From IMG/VR virus record IMGVR_UViG_3300042515_003128, positions 1-38,668 of that record: DNA of 38,668 nt; one strand, 5' to 3'. A program made the position numbers and the translations under genes. This stretch comes from a virus. This document shows, piece by piece, positions 5,219 through 38,668 of this stretch (within the stretch, counting starts at the first letter, position 1; every line of letters starts with the position of its first letter). Below the pieces are notes generated by a model. That model had not been told where the DNA came from. It searched no databases and was given only the letters and a program-made list of their open reading frames with translations.

Positions 5219-5620
5219 ATGACTGCGACGCGAAAATTTAACTGGTCCGTCCCTACGAAGCCCGCCGTGTCCGAGGGGGAACATTCGGCGCTGTTTGCCC
5301 TGGGCTCGCCCGAGGACATCGCGGCCATCGTGCGCAAAGGCATTTCGTCCGGGCTGCTGGTGCCGCGGAAGACGCCCGCGAAGGCCGTATCGGTGCCGCT
5401 GGCGAAGCGGGACCGGCCGCCGGAACGGGCGCTGCGGGGCGAGGCGGAAGGCCAGGTGCGGCAGATGTGGATCCGCACGCAGCGGGGCGAGAGCGCCCGG
5501 GACATCGCGGTGGCGCTGAAGGTGAGCATCGCCAGCGTGCGCCGGCTGGTCGCCGAGATCCGCAAGGGCGAGCGCGCCCTGCCCCGGCCCACGGCGACCG
5601 AGCAGGTGCGGAGGCATTGA
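5219..5620 (+). CDS. HTH-containing early protein (133 aa)
   Basis: The N-terminal part (MTATRKFNWSVPTKPAVSEG) is unrecognised. Residues about 78-117 (EGQVRQMWIRTQRGESARD, IAVALKVSIASVRRLVAEIR) form a helix-turn-helix of the resolvase/Trp-repressor type: GESARDIAVALKVSIASVRRL. It is therefore likely a DNA-binding regulator of early or late transcription. The start lies 9 bp after the pyrimidine tract of the structured RNA and has no Shine-Dalgarno sequence (ATTCAAGCC), so the RNA structure may influence its expression. Confidence 0.7.
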   Translation: MTATRKFNWSVPTKPAVSEGEHSALFALGSPEDIAAIVRKGISSGLLVPRKTPAKAVSVPLAKRDRPPERALRGEAEGQVRQMWIRTQRGESARDIAVALKVSIASVRRLVAEIRKGERALPRPTATEQVRRH

Positions 5621-5663
5621 GATTTCGGCAGAGAAGGCAAACCACAAACACAGAAGGCAAGGC

Positions 5664-6257
5664 ATGCAAACATTGAAGGAAGTGCGAGTTGAGATCGAGG
5701 GCATCCGCCCGCTGATCCTGCACAACGGGCTGCTCGCAGACCCGACGAACGAAACCGTGCGCGCCATGAAGCGCATCACGGCGAAGAAGAACAAGAAGAC
5801 GGACGCGGACAATGAGGAGCTGGCCCGGCTGGAATGGCTGGGTGGCTGGTATTTGAACGCGGACGGACGGCCCTACATCCCGGCGGCGAACATCGAGCGC
5901 ATGGTGCTCGACGGCGCGCGCAAGCTGCGGCTGGGCAAGGACTGCCAGGCGGCGGTCTTCTGCGAGGAAGATCAGGTGACGCTCCAGCATGACGAGCTGG
6001 ACGGCAAGAAGGTCGAGAAGCTGGCGGGCGATCCGCGCTTTGCCATCCGCTGCGGCGTGGTCGTGACGCAGAAGCGCATCATCCGCGTGCGGCCGATGGT
6101 GCCGACGGGTTGGCGGCTGGTCTTCCGGCTGAACTACGATTCGGGGGTTATCAACCTGTCCTCGATCCGGCAGGCGATCACGGATGCCGGGATGCTGTGC
6201 GGCCTGGGCGATTGGCGCCCGAAGTTCGGCCGGTTCACCGCCAAATTCTCCGAGTAA
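5664..6257 (+). CDS. Conserved-looking phage protein, GLGDWRPKFGRF type (197 aa)
   Basis: Reads MQTLKEVRVEIEGIRPLILH, with KKTDADNEELARLEWLGGWY in the middle and a Gly-rich end GLGDWRPKFGRFTAKFSE. I recall similar phage proteins (early gene, LHN-x-L-A-D-P start, GLGxxRPxFGRF end) that are annotated only as hypothetical. The repeated beta strands and Gly-rich tail are reminiscent of RAMP/Cas7-like single-strand nucleic-acid binders, which is speculation. Its place just before the replication genes fits a DNA-metabolism role. The stop and the next start overlap (TAATG). Confidence 0.8.
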   Translation: MQTLKEVRVEIEGIRPLILHNGLLADPTNETVRAMKRITAKKNKKTDADNEELARLEWLGGWYLNADGRPYIPAANIERMVLDGARKLRLGKDCQAAVFCEEDQVTLQHDELDGKKVEKLAGDPRFAIRCGVVVTQKRIIRVRPMVPTGWRLVFRLNYDSGVINLSSIRQAITDAGMLCGLGDWRPKFGRFTAKFSE

Positions 6258-6748
6258 TGGAAACGCCTGCCCTCAACCCGAGCGTGGATCTGCGGCGGTT
6301 GCCGCTGTGGAAGGACACGCTGGCCAAGATGGAGCCGATCACCTTTGGCAGCCGCTGGCGCACGGAATGGCTGGAGGAGCAACTGTGCGCGCGGCGGGAT
6401 CAGCCGGAGTTCTGCTTCGGCATTGATCACCTGAACCGGGCGATTCGCCCGCGGGGCTTTGTGCTGACGTGCCGGGGCGAAAGTGGCGTGGCTTACCGCA
6501 CGCTCCACGCCGACGAGATTCCCGAATACCTGGCGACCAAGGAAGAGCGGGCGAAGGCGCACTTGCGCAATGCGGAGACGGTCGCGGCGGGCGTGCTGAT
6601 GAATCCCGAGGCGAACCTGACGACGCTGGAACGCGAAGCGATCGAGCACAAGCAACGGAACCTCGCGCTGAAACTGGCGCTGCTCCAGCGGCACGAAGAC
6701 CCGGTGATTGATCCGGCGCTGCGCACGGCCGAACTGAGAAAACCCTGA
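6257..6748 (+). CDS. Unknown early phage protein (163 aa)
   Basis: Starts METPALNPSVDLRRLPLWKD; the ATG overlaps the upstream stop (TAATG). Central motifs are ITFGSRWRTEWLEEQL and FCFGIDHLNRAIRPRGFVLT. The C-terminal third is a long charged helix (TLEREAIEHKQRNLALKLAL). It is probably a partner of the preceding protein, since the two genes are translationally coupled. No family recognised. Confidence 0.75.
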   Translation: METPALNPSVDLRRLPLWKDTLAKMEPITFGSRWRTEWLEEQLCARRDQPEFCFGIDHLNRAIRPRGFVLTCRGESGVAYRTLHADEIPEYLATKEERAKAHLRNAETVAAGVLMNPEANLTTLEREAIEHKQRNLALKLALLQRHEDPVIDPALRTAELRKP

Positions 6749-6789
6749 TGCACGCGAGCCCGCCAGCAACCAGCAGCCTGCCCACATCC

Positions 6790-7030
6790 GCCGCACCGGC
6801 TTGGTGCGGCGCAGTGGGCGGGGCGGGGCTAGGCACGGCCTGCCGCGGCGATGCGCGGCTGGGCGAGGCAATGCGCGGCTCGGCCTGGCGCGGCAAGTCC
6901 ACACACGGCGCATCGGGAACGGTGCGCCGCAGTGGGCCAGGCGCTGCGGGGCCGGGCGTGGAACGGCAGTGCGAGGCCAGGCTGGGCAAGTCCACACACG
7001 GCGCATCGGGAACGGTGCGTCGCAGTGGGC
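6790..7030. repeat. GC-rich hairpin-repeat region upstream of the primase-helicase (gap 6749-7124)
   Basis: No convincing gene lies at 6749-7124. Two 46-bp copies of GGCAAGTCCACACACGGCGC... (6892-6937 and 6985-7030, 93 bp apart) differ at one base. Each forms a 10-bp hairpin, CGGCGCATCG-GGAA-CGGTGCGYCG, with a GNRA-type GGAA loop. A third, diverged hairpin lies at 6790-6810 (GCCGCACC-GGCTT-GGTGCGGC). All three are followed by CGCAGTGGGC. Placement directly before the replication gene suggests a replication origin (iterons) or a structured RNA. Confidence 0.7.
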
Positions 7031-7124
7031 GCGGCACGTCTTGGCGTGGCAGTGCCCGGCGCGGCGAGGCAGGTCGAGGTCCGGGGCGCGACGGATACGC
7101 GCATTCACTTTTTTGAGCTGAGGC

Positions 7125-9185
7125 ATGTCACGCGTTGATCACATTTTGAAGCTGCTTGGAGCCGATGAGGCGAAGGGGCGCACGCCCTGCCTGATTCCCA
7201 TTCCGGCGAAGCAGAAGGGGCCGGTGTTCCCGGATTGGAACAAGGTGGATTGGGAGCGGATGCAGGATGAGGATTACCGGGCGCAGCTCGAAGCGTCGCC
7301 GAATCTGGGCGTCATCCTGGGCAAGCAGTCGGGGCCGCTGGCGACGGTGGACATTGACGTCGAGGAATACGTGGGGCCCTTCCTGGAGGCGAATCCGCGG
7401 TTGCGTCAATGCCTGCGGACGCGGGGCGCGAAGGGCTGCCAGATTTGGGCGTGGTTGAAGCCGGACCCGAAGCTGGTGGGCCTCGGGCTGCCGAATTGGC
7501 AGCGGGGTTTTCCCGATCAGCGGTTCAACATTCCGCATCGGGTGGTGACGCAGCCGATGGCCGACGGCAACGGCGGCACGAAGGAAGTGCCGCTGGTGGT
7601 GATGGAATGGCGGGCGGGGGCGACGCAGAGCGTGATCCAAGGCATTCACCCGAGCGGGAACGAATATCGGGTGGTCGTGGAGGCGCCGCCGGCCGAGATC
7701 AGTTTCCGGGACATTATCTGGCCGGAGTATCTGAAGGCGCCGTGGCGGGATGATTTGTTCAAGGCGGTCGAGGCTTTGGCCGGTGATCCGTTCACCACGA
7801 CCTCGGACGGGCTCAGCCTGGCCCATCATTTTTGGGCGGCGCACTACGCGCTGATCCATGACGTCGTCTTCGAGCCCGATGAATCCCGGTTTTACGCCTA
7901 CAACCCGGTGACCGGGGGCTGGGAGAGCCGGATCGAGGCGCAGATGTTTACGGAGATCAGCCGGGATTTGCTGCGCCTCGGGCGGGATTTGCCGGGGCAG
8001 GCCGGCCAGCTGCTCGCGGGCTCAACGGGCCGCTCGATCAAGAGCGTTTCTGCCATTGCGAGTTTCCTCCAGGGGGAAGTCGCCAAGCCCCGGGTGTTTG
8101 AACGCGAGCCCGGCGTGATTCACCTGGAGAACGGGATGTTGGACGTGCGGACCAATCCGCCGTTCCTGGACTCCTTTTCGCCGAACTATTTCTCGCGGAA
8201 TCAGGTGCGGCACAATTACGCGCCCGGGGCGCCGTGTCCGCTGTGGAAAGACAAGCTGCTGGCCGACGCGTTGGATTCGGATGACCAGGTGCTGCTGCAG
8301 AAGCTCGCGGGCATGTGCTTGCTGGGAAACAACCTGCTTCAGCGCATCGTGATCCTCACGGGGAATGCGGGCGCCGGCAAAAGCCAGATCGCCCAGGTGA
8401 TTCAAGGCATCATTGGGCGGCACAACGTGGCGCAGCTCCGCACGGAGCACCTGGACGAACGCTTCGAGGCGGAGGGTTTCATCGGCAAGACGCTGCTCGT
8501 GGGCTCGGATGTGCCGGGGAGCTTCCTGAATCGGGCCTCGGCGTCGCAGCTCAAGTCGCTGACGGGCGGCGATTACCTGCAGGCCGAAATCAAGGGCGGT
8601 CGGCGCGTGGACATCACGGGGAATTTCAACGTCATCATCACCTGCAACAGCCGGCTCGTGGTGAAGACCGACGAGGATTCGGGCGCGTGGCGTCGTCGTC
8701 TGGTGATCCTGGCCTTTAACCGGCCGCCGCCGGCCGAGAAGATTCCCGACTTGGCGAAGCTGATCTTGGCGACCGAGGCGTCCGGGGTGCTGGACTGGAT
8801 GATCGAAGGGGCGCGCATGGTGCTGCACGACGTCGAGGCGCACGGGCGACTGGTGATGGCCCCGGCGCAGGCGCAACGCATCGAGGCGCTGCTGAATGAG
8901 TCGGAGAGCGTGCGGCATTACGTCGAGACGGCGTTGGAGCGCGTGGATCGGGCGCAGGGACAAACGACGACGACGGAGGAGCTGTTGGAGGCTTATCGGG
9001 AATTCTGCGCCGAGCGGGGCTGGAATGCCTTGGCGGACAGCACCTTTCTGAATCAGTCGCGGGACTTGGTGCTGCGGGTGCATTCACTGAGCCAGAGCAA
9101 CGATATCAAGCGCAAGGTGGGCGACCGCGATTCGGTGAAGCGGGGATATCGGCATCTGAAGATCAAGGGAGGGCCAGAGGAATGA
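7125..9185 (+). CDS. Primase-helicase (AEP prim-pol plus D5/P4-type SF3 helicase)
   Basis: A 686-residue replication protein. The N-terminal region (about 1-200) looks like a bifunctional primase-polymerase: LGVILGKQSGPLATVDIDVE carries the acidic pair D76/D78. The C-terminal region is a D5_N plus superfamily-3 helicase: D5-like ENGMLDVRTNPPFLDSF and NYFSRNQVRHNYAPGAPCPL, Walker A GNAGAGKS (413-420), sensor-like IITCN (about 504-508) and arginine residues at about 523-525 (AWRRRLVIL). It should prime and unwind phage DNA at the origin, in the manner of P4 alpha-type proteins. The start follows GCTGAGGC, a fair ribosome site, and lies 95 bp after the hairpin repeats. The stop overlaps the next gene (ATGA). 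Confidence 0.9.
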   Translation: MSRVDHILKLLGADEAKGRTPCLIPIPAKQKGPVFPDWNKVDWERMQDEDYRAQLEASPNLGVILGKQSGPLATVDIDVEEYVGPFLEANPRLRQCLRTRGAKGCQIWAWLKPDPKLVGLGLPNWQRGFPDQRFNIPHRVVTQPMADGNGGTKEVPLVVMEWRAGATQSVIQGIHPSGNEYRVVVEAPPAEISFRDIIWPEYLKAPWRDDLFKAVEALAGDPFTTTSDGLSLAHHFWAAHYALIHDVVFEPDESRFYAYNPVTGGWESRIEAQMFTEISRDLLRLGRDLPGQAGQLLAGSTGRSIKSVSAIASFLQGEVAKPRVFEREPGVIHLENGMLDVRTNPPFLDSFSPNYFSRNQVRHNYAPGAPCPLWKDKLLADALDSDDQVLLQKLAGMCLLGNNLLQRIVILTGNAGAGKSQIAQVIQGIIGRHNVAQLRTEHLDERFEAEGFIGKTLLVGSDVPGSFLNRASASQLKSLTGGDYLQAEIKGGRRVDITGNFNVIITCNSRLVVKTDEDSGAWRRRLVILAFNRPPPAEKIPDLAKLILATEASGVLDWMIEGARMVLHDVEAHGRLVMAPAQAQRIEALLNESESVRHYVETALERVDRAQGQTTTTEELLEAYREFCAERGWNALADSTFLNQSRDLVLRVHSLSQSNDIKRKVGDRDSVKRGYRHLKIKGGPEE

Positions 9186-9811
9186 AGCCCGGCTTTGAGA
9201 AGCGCGAGGACTTGGGCAAGCGCCGGGAGATCGCCGCGGAGTTGTTCGGCGCGATCCGTTGGAAGAGCCAGACCCATGGCTTTGCACGGTGCCCAGGCGA
9301 GGGCGCGCATTCGGGCAAGCGTGGGCCTAGGGACTTTGAGGTGCTGCTGAATGGCGTGCCGTGTTGTCGGTGCTTTCACAAGAGCTGCCTCGCGATAGTG
9401 GAGGACGCGAAGAAGAAGCTGCGTTCACGGATCGGCAAGGCGGAATGCGTCCGCGTTTCCACCTCCGCCGGCATCGCGCTACGGAAACGGACGTTCACGC
9501 TCGGCCGGCCCACGCCATTCGGGCGTAGCCAGAAAAATAACGTCCGAGGTGTCAGTGTTGCCGAAATGCTTCTCGGACGGGTCGGACGGGACAAAGACAA
9601 CACCTCACGCACCTACGCGTCATGTAAAGAGGTTGTGTTTAAGCCGTCCGACCCGTCCGAACTAGGGGAAAAAGTAGAAACCGGGGTGACAGTAGCCGGA
9701 ACCACCCAAGCCCCCGCCCCCCTGCCCAGCGCGACTAAGGAATCTTTTTTCTGCCCCCCCAACGCAGGTGGCAAAGCTCCAGTGCAAAACGGGCACGAAG
9801 TAAATTCCTGA
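9182..9811 (+). CDS. Zinc-binding protein coupled to the primase-helicase (209 aa)
   Basis: The first 95 residues hold a likely zinc site, CPGEGAH...CCRCFHKSC, ending AKKKLRSRIGKAE. The CPG-x-H ... CxH-x-SC arrangement recalls the zinc finger of DNA primases, so it may complete the prim-pol encoded just before it; the two genes overlap by ATGA. Beyond residue about 110 the sequence becomes low-complexity (PSDPSEL, TTQAPAPLPSATKES), and a 17-bp inverted repeat lies in the DNA. The C-terminal half may therefore be a late addition or a disordered linker. Confidence 0.7.
   Translation: MKPGFEKREDLGKRREIAAELFGAIRWKSQTHGFARCPGEGAHSGKRGPRDFEVLLNGVPCCRCFHKSCLAIVEDAKKKLRSRIGKAECVRVSTSAGIALRKRTFTLGRPTPFGRSQKNNVRGVSVAEMLLGRVGRDKDNTSRTYASCKEVVFKPSDPSELGEKVETGVTVAGTTQAPAPLPSATKESFFCPPNAGGKAPVQNGHEVNS
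9573..9660. repeat. 17-bp perfect inverted repeat at the GC-skew switch
   Basis: TCGGACGGGTCGGACGG (9573-9589) and CCGTCCGACCCGTCCGA (9644-9660) are exact reverse complements with a 54-bp spacer. Each arm is itself made of TCGGACGG-type units. The element lies in the low-complexity end of the zinc-protein gene, where strand composition changes from G-rich to C-rich. It may be a terminator, a replication element or a binding site. Confidence 0.7.
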
Positions 9812-11374: not shown

Positions 11375-11434
11375 ACAGCGAAGACGCGAACGGCATGAAG
11401 GCAAAACAATCTGGAAAGCAGGAATGCAGGAAAA
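11374..11434 (+). repeat. Composite repeat arms C plus A, left border of the 103-codon gene
   Basis: Family C arm AACAGCGAAGACGCGAA (11374-11390) is followed by a family A arm CTGGAAAGCAGGAATGCAGG (from about 11410). Their reverse complements lie in mirrored order at 11701-11754, so the two composite arms bracket the gene between them. Confidence 0.75.
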
Positions 11435-11758: not shown

Positions 11759-12628
11759 ATGACCCTCTTCCCCGAACTTGCCCCCGAGCCTGTCGCCAGC
11801 GCGCCGGCCGAGGCCCCGCGCCGGGCCATGCCCGTGCCCGAGGTCTGGTCTGATTCGTGTGAGGAAACCGCCGTCCTGTTCGGCCTCGCCGCCCGGGCGC
11901 CCGTGCAGGCCATCGTCACCAGCCCGCCCTATTGGTCAGTCCATCGTTACACCAACGCCGCGGTCTGCGAAATCGGCTGGGAATCCACGCCCGACGCCTA
12001 CGCCCAGCGCCTTGCCCGCCTGTTCGCCCTGCTCCGCGACACCTGCCTCACCCCGCAAAGCACCCTCTGGATCAACCTCGCCGACGTCATGAACGATGCC
12101 GACTGGGGCATCCGCGACAAGTCCCTGCCGGAAAAGACCCTGCTCGGCCTGCCCTCGCGCTTCCTCCTGGCGATGCTCGCCCAGGGCTTCACCTGCCGCA
12201 GCGAAATCGTCTGGACCAAAACCCGCGGCCTCATCGAAAACCCAACCGACCGGCCCACGCGCACCGACGAGCGCGTCTTCCTCTTCAGTTGCGGCCCCGG
12301 CTACTACTTCGACGCCGCGGCCCTCAGCGAACCCGACGACCTCGGCGGCCGGCGCAATGGCCGCAACCAATGGGCCCTCGCGCCCGATCAGGACTCCGCC
12401 GCCTACGCCCGGCACCCGGCCATCATGCCCCGCGCCCTCGCGCAACGCTGCATCCTCGCCGGCACGCGCCCCGGCGACCTCGTGCTTGATCCCTTCTGCG
12501 GCACCGGCACGACCCTGGCGGTCGCCTACGCCCACGGCCGGCGCGCCATCGGCCTCGAACTCAATCCCGCCTACGTCGCCCAGGCCCGCGCCCGCCTCGC
12601 CGCCACGACTCCGGGATTCCCGCTTTGA
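11759..12628 (+). CDS. DNA methyltransferase (SPPY type, N4-cytosine or N6-adenine)
   Basis: A 289-residue beta-class amino-methyltransferase. The catalytic motif TSPPYW is at 54-59, and the AdoMet-binding motif LDPFCGTGTT at 243-252 is followed by GRRAIGLELNP. This motif order (IV before I) defines the beta class. TSPPYW is common in N4-cytosine enzymes, so m4C is slightly favoured. No restriction partner is nearby, so this is an orphan phage enzyme, probably protecting DNA from host restriction or marking packaging or transcription sites. It lies between repeat elements, just before the large terminase. Confidence 0.9.
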   Translation: MTLFPELAPEPVASAPAEAPRRAMPVPEVWSDSCEETAVLFGLAARAPVQAIVTSPPYWSVHRYTNAAVCEIGWESTPDAYAQRLARLFALLRDTCLTPQSTLWINLADVMNDADWGIRDKSLPEKTLLGLPSRFLLAMLAQGFTCRSEIVWTKTRGLIENPTDRPTRTDERVFLFSCGPGYYFDAAALSEPDDLGGRRNGRNQWALAPDQDSAAYARHPAIMPRALAQRCILAGTRPGDLVLDPFCGTGTTLAVAYAHGRRAIGLELNPAYVAQARARLAATTPGFPL

Positions 12629-12656
12629 TGAATCTGGAAGGCAGGAAAACAGGAAC
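12628..12656 (+). repeat. Family A repeat arm, left border of the 85-codon gene
   Basis: ATGAATCTGGAAGGCAGGAA then AACAGGAACC, overlapping the last base of the methyltransferase stop (TGATGAAT). Its mirror arm is at 12914-12939. Confidence 0.75.
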
Positions 12657-12662
12657 CGACGC

Positions 12663-15103: not shown

Positions 15104-15115
15104 CAACCGGAGGAA

Positions 15116-15303
15116 ATGAATTTGGAAGGCAGGAAAGCAGGAACATAGAAAGCCTTGCCCGTAACCCGGGCAAATGAGCAGACAGGGGAACGTGCCCGAA
15201 GTCTGCGCAGTCGGGTAAAAGTAAACCCCGGCCGCTACCCGTCGGCGTAACAACAGCGCGGGAAAATTTGGTTTCCCTTCCTGCCTTCCTGCCTTCCAGA
15301 TTG
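15116..15303 (+). ncRNA. Repeat-bracketed four-hairpin structured segment
   Basis: A forward family A arm (15116-15143) and a reverse arm (15274-15303) flank about 130 bp with no gene. It contains four hairpins in series: TTGCCCG-TAACC-CGGGCAA (15155-15173); GCAGAC...GTCTGC (15178-15206, with an inner GGG/CCC); CGGGTA...TACCCG (15212-15241); and GGGAAA-ATTTGG-TTTCCC (15260-15277). The outer A arms can pair to close the whole. It looks like a small structured RNA carried as cargo between the A arms, upstream of the portal gene. No known RNA family is recognised. Confidence 0.55.
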
Positions 15304-26685: not shown

Positions 26686-26919
26686 ATGCAATTTCGCATC
26701 CAGGGGAAAATGCGCCGGCCGACCAATCCGCGGCCACCGCCCGTGACCCGCCGCGAGGCCGCCTGCCGCGCCTGCGAATGGTTCAACGCCCCGCAGCAGA
26801 AGTGCGCGCACCCCAACACGGCGACCTGGGCGCGCTGCTGGAGCTGCCTGAGCCGCGACCGCCCCTGGCTCAAGCCCGGCGGCCACGACGCCTGCCCGCT
26901 CGGCGCAAAGGGGGAATGA
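26686..26919 (+). CDS. Small Cys-rich protein (77 aa)
   Basis: Six cysteines: CRACEW, QKCAHPN, ARCWSC and DACPL. The C-x2-C ... C ... C-x2-C ... C spacing suggests a zinc or Fe-S site. The N-terminus is basic and Pro-rich (MRRPTNPRPPPVTRREA). The stop is supplied by the family A arm that begins here, and the next gene's ATG overlaps it. Unknown function; similar Cys-rich proteins occur beside tail genes in other phages as I recall. Confidence 0.7.
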   Translation: MQFRIQGKMRRPTNPRPPPVTRREAACRACEWFNAPQQKCAHPNTATWARCWSCLSRDRPWLKPGGHDACPLGAKGE

Positions 26920-27710
26920 ATTTGGAAGTCAGGAAAGCAGGAACAGCCGAGAGCACAGAGCCGGTGCGGATCACGCTCGGCGATTTGACCGCCACGCTGT
27001 TTCGTGGGGACTGCCTCACCGTGCTTGCGTCCTTCAAAAGCGACTCGGTCGAAATGATTTGGACGGATCCGCCATACGGTCACTCGAATCACGTCGGCGA
27101 CCTAAATGCCAGGCTGAACGACTACCGCGAAATCGCTGGCAGCCCAATCGAAAACGATGGCCCATTGGAAATGCGCGCAGTCGTGGACGGGATGCTGACT
27201 GAAGCGGCGCGCGTTTTGCGGCCTGACTGCTGCTGCTGCTGCTGCTGCTGCTGCGGCGGCGGCGGCCCGCGGCCCACGTTTGCCTGGGTGGCAAATCGTA
27301 TGGACTGCTCCGGCTTGGAGTTTTTTCACTCGATCATCTGGGACAAAATGAATCCCGGCCTCGGGTGGCGATATCGCCGGCAGCACGAGATGATCATGGT
27401 TTCGCATCGGAAAGGCGGAAAGCTGGCATGGAACGATGACTATCCGGCGCAGCCAAACGTGATGCGGATCAGCAAACCCCGCGGCGATTTGCATCCGAAT
27501 GTGAAGCCCGTGGAGCTAGTGCAACGCTTTATCCAGCAGCACACGGCAAAAGCCGAAACCGTTCTCGACCCGTTCATGGGCAGCGGCACGACCGGCGTCG
27601 CCTGCCTGCGCACGGGCCGGAACTTCATCGGCATCGAGAAAGACCCAAAACACTTTGCCACCGCCGTCGAGCGCCTCGAACGCGAGGCCCGCCAAGGCGT
27701 CCTCCTTTAA
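26916..27710 (+). CDS. DNA methyltransferase with poly-Cys/poly-Gly tract (N6-adenine type)
   Basis: A beta-class methyltransferase: WTDPPYG (49-55), then HPNVKPVELVQRF (193-205), then the AdoMet motif LDPFMGSGTTG (217-227). DPPY is typical of N6-adenine enzymes. Residues 105-117 are nine Cys and four Gly encoded by a TGC/GGC tract. The first nine residues (MNLEVRKAG) are translated from the family A arm, so the native start may be a GTG at about 26963 before VRITLGDL. Inverted A arms lie on both sides (26916 and 27721). Orphan enzyme, no restriction partner seen. Confidence 0.9.
   Translation: MNLEVRKAGTAESTEPVRITLGDLTATLFRGDCLTVLASFKSDSVEMIWTDPPYGHSNHVGDLNARLNDYREIAGSPIENDGPLEMRAVVDGMLTEAARVLRPDCCCCCCCCCGGGGPRPTFAWVANRMDCSGLEFFHSIIWDKMNPGLGWRYRRQHEMIMVSHRKGGKLAWNDDYPAQPNVMRISKPRGDLHPNVKPVELVQRFIQQHTAKAETVLDPFMGSGTTGVACLRTGRNFIGIEKDPKHFATAVERLEREARQGVLL
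27228..27266 (+). repeat. (TGC)9(GGC)4 trinucleotide tract in the methyltransferase gene
   Basis: TGC repeated nine times (27228-27254), then GGC four times (27255-27266). Slippage would add or remove whole Cys/Gly residues without a frameshift, so it could tune but not switch off the enzyme. Confidence 0.95.
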
Positions 27711-34156: not shown

Positions 34157-34335
34157 CTGCCATCGCCATCCCGCTTGCCATCGAAGCCGCCAAGGCTCTT
34201 GCGCCGTTTGCCATCGATGTTCTCCGGCTGCTGAAGCAACGCGGCGAACTCACGCCCGAGCAGATCGCCGAACTGCAAGCCCTCAACGCCAAGACCGAAG
34301 CCGACTACGTGAAGGCAGCCGGCGGAAGGGAATGA
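34153..34335 (+). CDS. Small helical protein (60 aa)
   Basis: Reads MTAIAIPLAIEAAKALAPFA, then IDVLRLLKQRGELTPEQIAE, and LNAKTEADYVKAAGGRE. Alternating Ala/Leu helices suggest a small membrane-associated or coiled protein. Begins by ATGA overlap; its TGA stop is supplied by the family A arm that starts here. Last gene of the lysis-like group. Confidence 0.6.
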   Translation: MTAIAIPLAIEAAKALAPFAIDVLRLLKQRGELTPEQIAELQALNAKTEADYVKAAGGRE

Positions 34336-34409
34336 ATCTGGAAGACAGGAAAGCAGGAACCGAGCAGACCGGCCCGGTTCCCTTCCTGCCTTCCTGCCTT
34401 CCAAATTGA
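34332..34409. repeat. Family A palindromic hairpin (complete, short loop)
   Basis: Left arm ATGAATCTGGAAGACAGGAA then AGCAGGAACCG, a short loop AGCAGACCGGCC, and right arm CGGTTCCCTTCCTGCCTTCC, TGCCTTCCAAATTG. Long imperfect inverted repeat: the empty form of family A, with no cargo between its arms. Confidence 0.85.
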
Positions 34410-38253: not shown

Positions 38254-38465
38254 CCCCGCTGCCCACCACCCTCGTCGGCTCCAGCCGCGGCCGGATCACC
38301 CGCCGGATCGCGGCACTGGAGAATGTCATCTACGGCACCAATCCCAACGCCGCCGACGGCACCTTCATCACCCGCACCCCGCGTGGCACTTTCATCCGCT
38401 CCCGCTCCCGCGGCACCGCCGCCGGCACGGGCAGTCAGCAATCCCAAATCCCCCGCTGGCTCTGA
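38250..38465 (+). CDS. Small basic protein at the right end (71 aa)
   Basis: Reads MTPLPTTLVGSSRGRITRRI, then AALENVIYGTNPNAADGTFI and a basic Ser/Arg tail. Its stop (TGA 38463-38465) lies inside the terminal repeat, so its last codons reappear at bases 1-8 of the window. Unknown function; last gene of the late transcript before attP. Confidence 0.6.
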   Translation: MTPLPTTLVGSSRGRITRRIAALENVIYGTNPNAADGTFITRTPRGTFIRSRSRGTAAGTGSQQSQIPRWL

Positions 38466-38531
38466 CACCGAAACCGGCACCCAATCACCGCCCCACTCAC
38501 CAAACCCAGCAAATCCGCCCAAACCGCCGCC

Positions 38532-38578
38532 CCTTGACACGGTAGGGGTCACAGGTTCGAAACCTGTATCGCGCACCA
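38532..38578 (+). other. attP core, right copy (tRNA-Val 3' half)
   Basis: Second copy of the anticodon-loop-to-CCA sequence, identical to 75-121. In the integrated prophage the late gene end (38465) would lie on one side of one hybrid att site and int on the other. Confidence 0.85.
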
Positions 38579-38594
38579 TGCGGATTTGTTCGAG

Positions 38595-38618
38595 AAAAGG
38601 CCCTTCGGGGCCTTTTTT
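38595..38618 (+). terminator. Intrinsic terminator, right copy
   Basis: Same AAAAGGCCC-TTCG-GGGCCTTTT hairpin as at 138-161. On the circular genome it would end the late transcript before int. Confidence 0.88.
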
Positions 38619-38668
38619 GTTGCCCTTCCGCGGTGTGGGGGCCGGGCGGGCGGCGGGCTTGGTTGCCG

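Follow-up and report, generated by a model that had tools for sequence, protein, structure and literature searches.

Hairpins Upstream of the Primase Gene Alternate with Pentanucleotide Arrays

Why does a phage carry several copies of one strong hairpin directly in front of its primase-helicase gene? The question arose in the window, the whole 38,668-nucleotide stretch of viral DNA analyzed here (IMG/VR record IMGVR_UViG_3300042515_003128), for which an earlier note had proposed either selection on RNA structure or an SF3 helicase origin. The two 46-bp copies that it described are present at 6892–6937 and 6985–7030, with C6927/T7020 as the sole mismatch; on the + strand this difference changes a G-C to a G-U pair, and the stem pairing is kept. 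A third, diverged hairpin was likewise confirmed (H1, 6777–6822, conserved core 6780–6819). The 10-bp stem with its GGAA loop is present as described, but that description was undersized, having missed a 6-bp outer stem that lies beyond a 3×2 internal loop. RNA folding gives 15–18 pairs per hairpin, arranged as the outer stem (GUCCAC/GUGGGC; 9 bp in H1), the internal loop (ACA or ATC/CA), a 9–10-bp inner stem, and a loop of 4–5 nt.

All three + strand hairpins fold far better than their dinucleotide shuffles (z = −5.3, −5.1, and −5.4; 0 of 200 shuffles as good in each case). G·U pairs are confined to the + strand, and for the third copy the minus strand does about as well as shuffled sequence (z = −0.97). 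When H1–H3 are compared, every one of the 47 pair cells stays paired, and one pair has changed on both sides (C-G/G-C/G-U); 155 of 500 shuffles did as well, such that the three sequences are suggestive only and statistically not decisive. Rfam yielded no family for the hairpin region at the gathering threshold or at E≤5, nor any hammerhead ribozyme match between the arrays at these thresholds. Two weak snoRNA/miRNA matches were judged to be chance, and a tRNA explanation of the region failed, as did the nearest Rfam and coding explanations.

The hairpins are embedded in a + strand array of (GGCNN)n pentanucleotides (6817–7082), a feature absent from the earlier note. Autocorrelation at lag 5 is 0.44 between the hairpins versus 0.22–0.26 in the flanks, and 9 of 11 slots hold an in-phase GGY, which none of 1,000 shuffles of the region reached. 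Each unit consists of GGC (at times TGC, GCC, GTC, or GGA) followed by two variable bases, and the units form three blocks with a 5-nt period: A1 (6817–6896, 16 pentamers, GGC with GCC and TGC variants), A2 (6935–6989, 11 pentamers, two TGC and one GGA), and A3 (7028–7082, 11 pentamers, GTC and TGC variants). A structured 3′ tail follows A1 (H2, 6897–6937) and A2 (H3, 6990–7030), both assigned from folding and from the tails of relatives, while none was seen after A3. H1, a diverged tail-type hairpin assigned from folding and pair comparison, has no array before it. A terminator-like hairpin with a T-run ends the array block (7086–7114, + strand); this is a weak candidate, with 2 found versus 1.2 expected by chance. 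Given that some units depart from GGY, that no array precedes H1, and that A3 has no two-step tail, the locus is perhaps partly decayed; the deviations may reflect such partial decay, or tolerance of NGC in the window's clade.

Could the periodicity instead belong to a protein? An ORF at 6748–7116 (122 aa) might encode a low-complexity repeat, given that its ATG overlaps the preceding gene's stop codon and that the repeat length of 93 bp is divisible by three. The period, however, is 5 rather than 3, and two minus-strand frames are just as free of stops in this stretch of 74% GC. The earlier note had set a conserved protein frame across 6749–7124 against its RNA reading; in relatives the GGY spacing and the stem pairing are kept and no reading frame is, which leaves a protein repeat scarcely credible. 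A CRISPR array was also rejected, the “spacers” between the repeats being GGCNN pentamer arrays.

TRAP, a multimeric protein, binds RNA triplets that recur every 5 nt. The window array also presents triplets at a 5-nt period, but TRAP recognizes (G/U)AG triplets, is an unrelated protein, and acts in attenuation rather than DNA targeting, so that the likeness is one of analogy only.

A RAMP-Like Protein Is Encoded near the Arrays

Arrays of this kind are common among viral contigs, where a scan requiring seven exact GGCNN units gave at least 120 stretches. Among the matches listed, one protein family (phrog_4652) was encoded near the array in 83 of 120 loci, and in 81 of these 83 the array and the family gene lay on the same strand; the window's member is one gene upstream of its array. 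By comparison, a relative of this protein occurs in only 129 of 50,697 phage records (E≤1e-3), figures that come from different collections and searches and therefore give the direction of the association but no exact odds ratio. The other 37 of the 120 loci, among the matches listed, had no recognizable gene of the family (L003, L007, L013, L019, L062, L094, and others); some may be cut by contig ends, and others may carry more distant RAMPs.

The window gene (5664–6257, + strand, 197 aa) was identified by phmmer, profile, and predicted structure. Its product matches the Vipr protein of Escherichia phage SUSP1 (PDB code 36pp) with a phmmer E-value of 2.9e-20 and 29% identity, and the family profile matches the same entry, “SUSP1 Vipr protein,” at E = 1.4e-52. 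All sequences of the 69-member family alignment match phrog_4652, which is annotated as of unknown function, and no fitting Pfam or NCBIfam entry was found for the family. The AlphaFold model (pLDDT 96.5) resembles type III Csm3/Cas7 proteins by Foldseek (E down to 2.7e-06) and by VIA-align (Z = 11.5 over 138–159 residues at 12–13% identity). PADLOC matches to Csm3/Cas5 were weak (E of 0.024 and above) and were not counted as evidence. Sequence and predicted structure together make the protein a small RAMP of one domain and a homolog of SUSP1 Vipr. In a tree of the family it groups with L164, L165, L167, L017, and L067 (support 94/99), the first three being its closest relatives at 49%–55% identity.

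The locus is compact, with vipr followed by an overlapping vap-like gene and then the three arrays. The vap-like gene (6257–6748, + strand, 163 aa; assigned by profile and model) starts within the vipr stop (TGATG), and its profile links 33 loci, among them that of the Felixounavirus wV8, where it finds the gene that follows vipr. Its model (pLDDT 87.9) has a predicted winged-helix-like N-terminal part and long helices. We found no significant PDB fold match for this model, and a vap search of the viral contigs returned nothing.

The Locus Resembles VIPR of Phage SUSP1

VIPR (Viral Interference Programmable Repeat), described in 2026, is an RNA-guided, phage-borne relative of CRISPR. It combines a RAMP encoded by the phage with a vap gene, and its guide RNAs carry 9–16 GGY/NN repeats and end in a structured 3′ tail (preprint PMC13142463). 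In the published mechanism the guides read double-stranded DNA, skipping one base in each repeat, and the complex represses genes that belong to competing mobile elements; VIPR has been put forward as a possible ancestor of the CRISPR RAMPs (PMC13142463). The window holds all of the sequence features of such a system: vipr, a vap-like gene, arrays on the vipr strand, and tails. Given the match to 36pp and the Csm3/Cas7 fold, we therefore read the locus as VIPR, with vipr, vap, and three arrays. Region 6817–7082 is thus very probably its guide-RNA part, with H2 and H3 serving as guide 3′ tails and not as an origin.

SUSP1 (KT454805; PMC13142463), which belongs to type II of the seven VIPR types and served as a positive control, has GGT-type arrays on the vipr strand. 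The two systems share a homologous Vipr RAMP, pentamer arrays of GGY/NN units encoded on the same strand as vipr, a structured 3′ tail, and, as seen in the related phage wV8, a vap-family gene after vipr. They differ in that units are GGT-rich in SUSP1 and GGC/TGC in the window, in that one SUSP1 array lies upstream of vipr whereas all window arrays lie downstream of the genes, and in their tails, a pseudoknot in SUSP1 versus, under nested folding, a two-step stem-loop with an ACA/CA internal loop in the window. Such a nested fold suffices to account for the tails of the window; those of wV8 and SUSP1 differ by eye. The window is a complete, compact VIPR example from a different clade than SUSP1. 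In Escherichia phage wV8 (L129:3740–5320), an annotated 58-nt direct repeat, DR_4, flanks two hypothetical genes and coincides with parts of a VIPR locus, namely its GGTNN arrays and their tails.

Class 1 CRISPR RAMPs (Csm3, Cas7) share with the window protein the fold, a glycine-rich loop (GLGDWRPKFGRF), and the use of a modular repeat RNA. In contrast to those systems, the window has a single small RAMP, and its guides are interrupted GGY/NN units, not contiguous spacers. No other cas gene was recognized near the window Vipr, and the nearby proteins tested matched no Pfam CRISPR family.

Two-Step Hairpins Recur at the 3′ Ends of Related Arrays

The arrays of L164, L165, and L167 run straight into a two-step hairpin of the window plan. 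In these relatives the tail consists of an outer stem ending in AC, a linker (ACA or CCA), an inner stem, a second linker (CA or AA), and GT plus the returning outer stem; the more distant loci L024, L047, and L036 carry the same two-step plan at their 3′ array ends. Stem letters have changed yet remain complementary, and ACA/CA persists in the internal loop, from which we conclude that the hairpin forms a tail of the RNA that has been conserved. The apical loops are TTCG, TTTG, CACGA, or TTACGG, and the window's GNRA loop (GGAA) is accordingly not conserved. Selection on RNA structure, one half of the original proposal, is supported by this recurrence at related 3′ array ends, with stems that differ and still pair, as the suggested check for compensatory changes would have it.

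Two comparisons quantify the conservation. Of the 28 two-step hairpins that immediately follow in-phase GGY units on the 3′ side, 13 have linkers of the form [AC]NA/NA, as do 13 of the 574 located at other places in these sequences (Fisher p = 1.5e-12, with several of the 13 coming from the same or near-identical viruses); since the linker letters lay outside the search criteria, the test is free of circularity on that point. Across 15 tails, 98.5% of cells pair, with many pair types, versus 67.7% when the 3′ letters are shuffled (0 of 2,000 as high), a figure that is partly circular because most tails came from a search requiring pairing.

The Locus Is Exchanged as a Block

An origin that extrudes DNA cruciforms or binds the adjacent P4-family primase-helicase is suggested by the strength of the hairpins and by their position directly upstream of the P4-type gene (TIGR01613, E = 1.6e-42). 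Alignment to the close relative L001 argues otherwise. Nucleotide identity is 93% up to 5222 and 88% from the primase ATG (7125) onward, while the L001 DNA between these points is unrelated to the window; we found no array in the corresponding interval and no vipr match in the L001 record. Since L001 keeps the flanks and lacks the block, 5223–7124 (+ strand) is an exchangeable cargo unit, swapped as a whole and ending exactly at the primase ATG. The proposed SF3 helicase origin does not hold up here, as L001 retains the primase region at 88% identity without the block, and across viruses arrays track a RAMP gene and not a helicase; considered as an origin element, the region is not kept beside the helicase gene of this relative. 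Homologous vipr units moreover occur elsewhere in unrelated surroundings, beside tail or structural genes (tail genes in LittleE and Medea1, for example), and the wobble pairs favor one strand only. We regard an origin as highly unlikely, and hairpins beside phage replication genes can thus be guide-RNA tails rather than origins.

A Proposed Mechanism and the Role of the Tails

The protein family, predicted fold, array, conserved tail, layout, and wholesale swap of the block are shown by the window and its comparison with relatives; from the published system (PMC13142463) we infer that the phage would express the RNAs, form an RNP, target DNA, and repress genes. By this analogy, the RAMP-like Vipr (5664–6257) would assemble on + strand RNAs of 16, 11, and 11 GGY-NN pentamers. 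As in SUSP1, Vipr would coat the pentamer RNA, and the NN letters would pair with double-stranded DNA at one-base skips, and the complex may then repress genes of competing mobile elements. H2 and H3 would end guides A1 and A2, probably as a handle and/or a processing site, the tail either anchoring assembly or marking the point at which a precursor is cut, perhaps by a host RNase.

A variant within the VIPR reading, and not an alternative to it, is that the hairpin is mainly an RNA-processing site (e.g., for RNase III-like cutting, or forming the following guide's 5′ end) and not a Vipr-bound 3′ handle. H1 precedes A1 and A3 has no tail, and the hairpins can therefore be read as preceding every array; other VIPR arrays also hold interspersed processing elements, namely hammerhead ribozymes (PMC13142463). 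Against this, the arrays of L164 and L167 end directly in the hairpin, even some that no hairpin of this kind precedes; the letters of the internal loop have been kept, and the published tails are 3′ (PMC13142463). We consider a mainly processing role rather unlikely. The comparison with relatives defines a tail structure on which both Vipr binding and guide processing can be tested.

The chances seem about even that VIPR clades carry interchangeable kinds of tail, among them pseudoknots and hammerheads, both already published, as well as two-step ACA/CA hairpins and tRNA-like minihelices, with the window clade's class absent from the main text of PMC13142463 and common to distant Viprs (the window clade, L024/L047, and L036). 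At other VIPR loci the arrays are interspersed with tRNA-like minihelices (L125:5205–5390, L126:1650–3140, L123:4700–4750, L108:1490–1810, L023, and L006), each an acceptor stem plus T arm (TTCGANT loop) with 9–12 nt joining and neither a D nor an anticodon arm. Ten were seen in the array regions of 5 loci, the one in Trine by eye, and examples come from mycobacterial phages, Gordonia phages, and related contigs. T-arm matches outside arrays mostly have 32–54 nt at the joining stretch, like full tRNAs. The minihelices, of which the main text of PMC13142463 makes no mention, could be RNase P-type processing sites.

Target Searches and Other Repeats in the Window

We searched for targets by the 1-nt-skip rule in viral contigs, bacterial genomes, and relatives, and under this rule none of the three gave a convincing target for the window guides. 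Guides A2 and A3 and repeats 1–9 of A1 had zero matches in the viral contigs, A1 and A2 had none in relatives, and no self-target was found within the window. Partial hits were attributed to chance; those in genomes fell mostly on a common PurH peptide, TLAEAWDKA, and the matches did not extend.

The window also contains repeats outside the VIPR locus. An interspersed repeat, GATGAATTTGGAAGGCAGGAAAGCAGGAA, occurs on both strands (1380–1413, 11401–11434, 12624–12657, 15112–15145, 26912–26945, and 34328–34361, plus inverted copies), and further families comprise AACAGCGAAGGCGCGAAGGCGCGAA and a TTCTGCATTCTTCATTC...CACCATGGACGGC unit; the first two families, GATGAATTTGGAAGGCAGGAAAGCAGGAA and AACAGCGAAGGCGCGAAGGCGCGAA, are present in L001 too. 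A 211-bp terminal repeat with one mismatch joins positions 1–211 and 38458–38668, and the window is therefore probably a complete genome, circular or terminally redundant, of about 38.5 kb. Finally, an imperfect 29-bp inverted repeat (TCGGACGGGTCGGACGGG) lies at 9573–9660, inside ORF 9182–9811.
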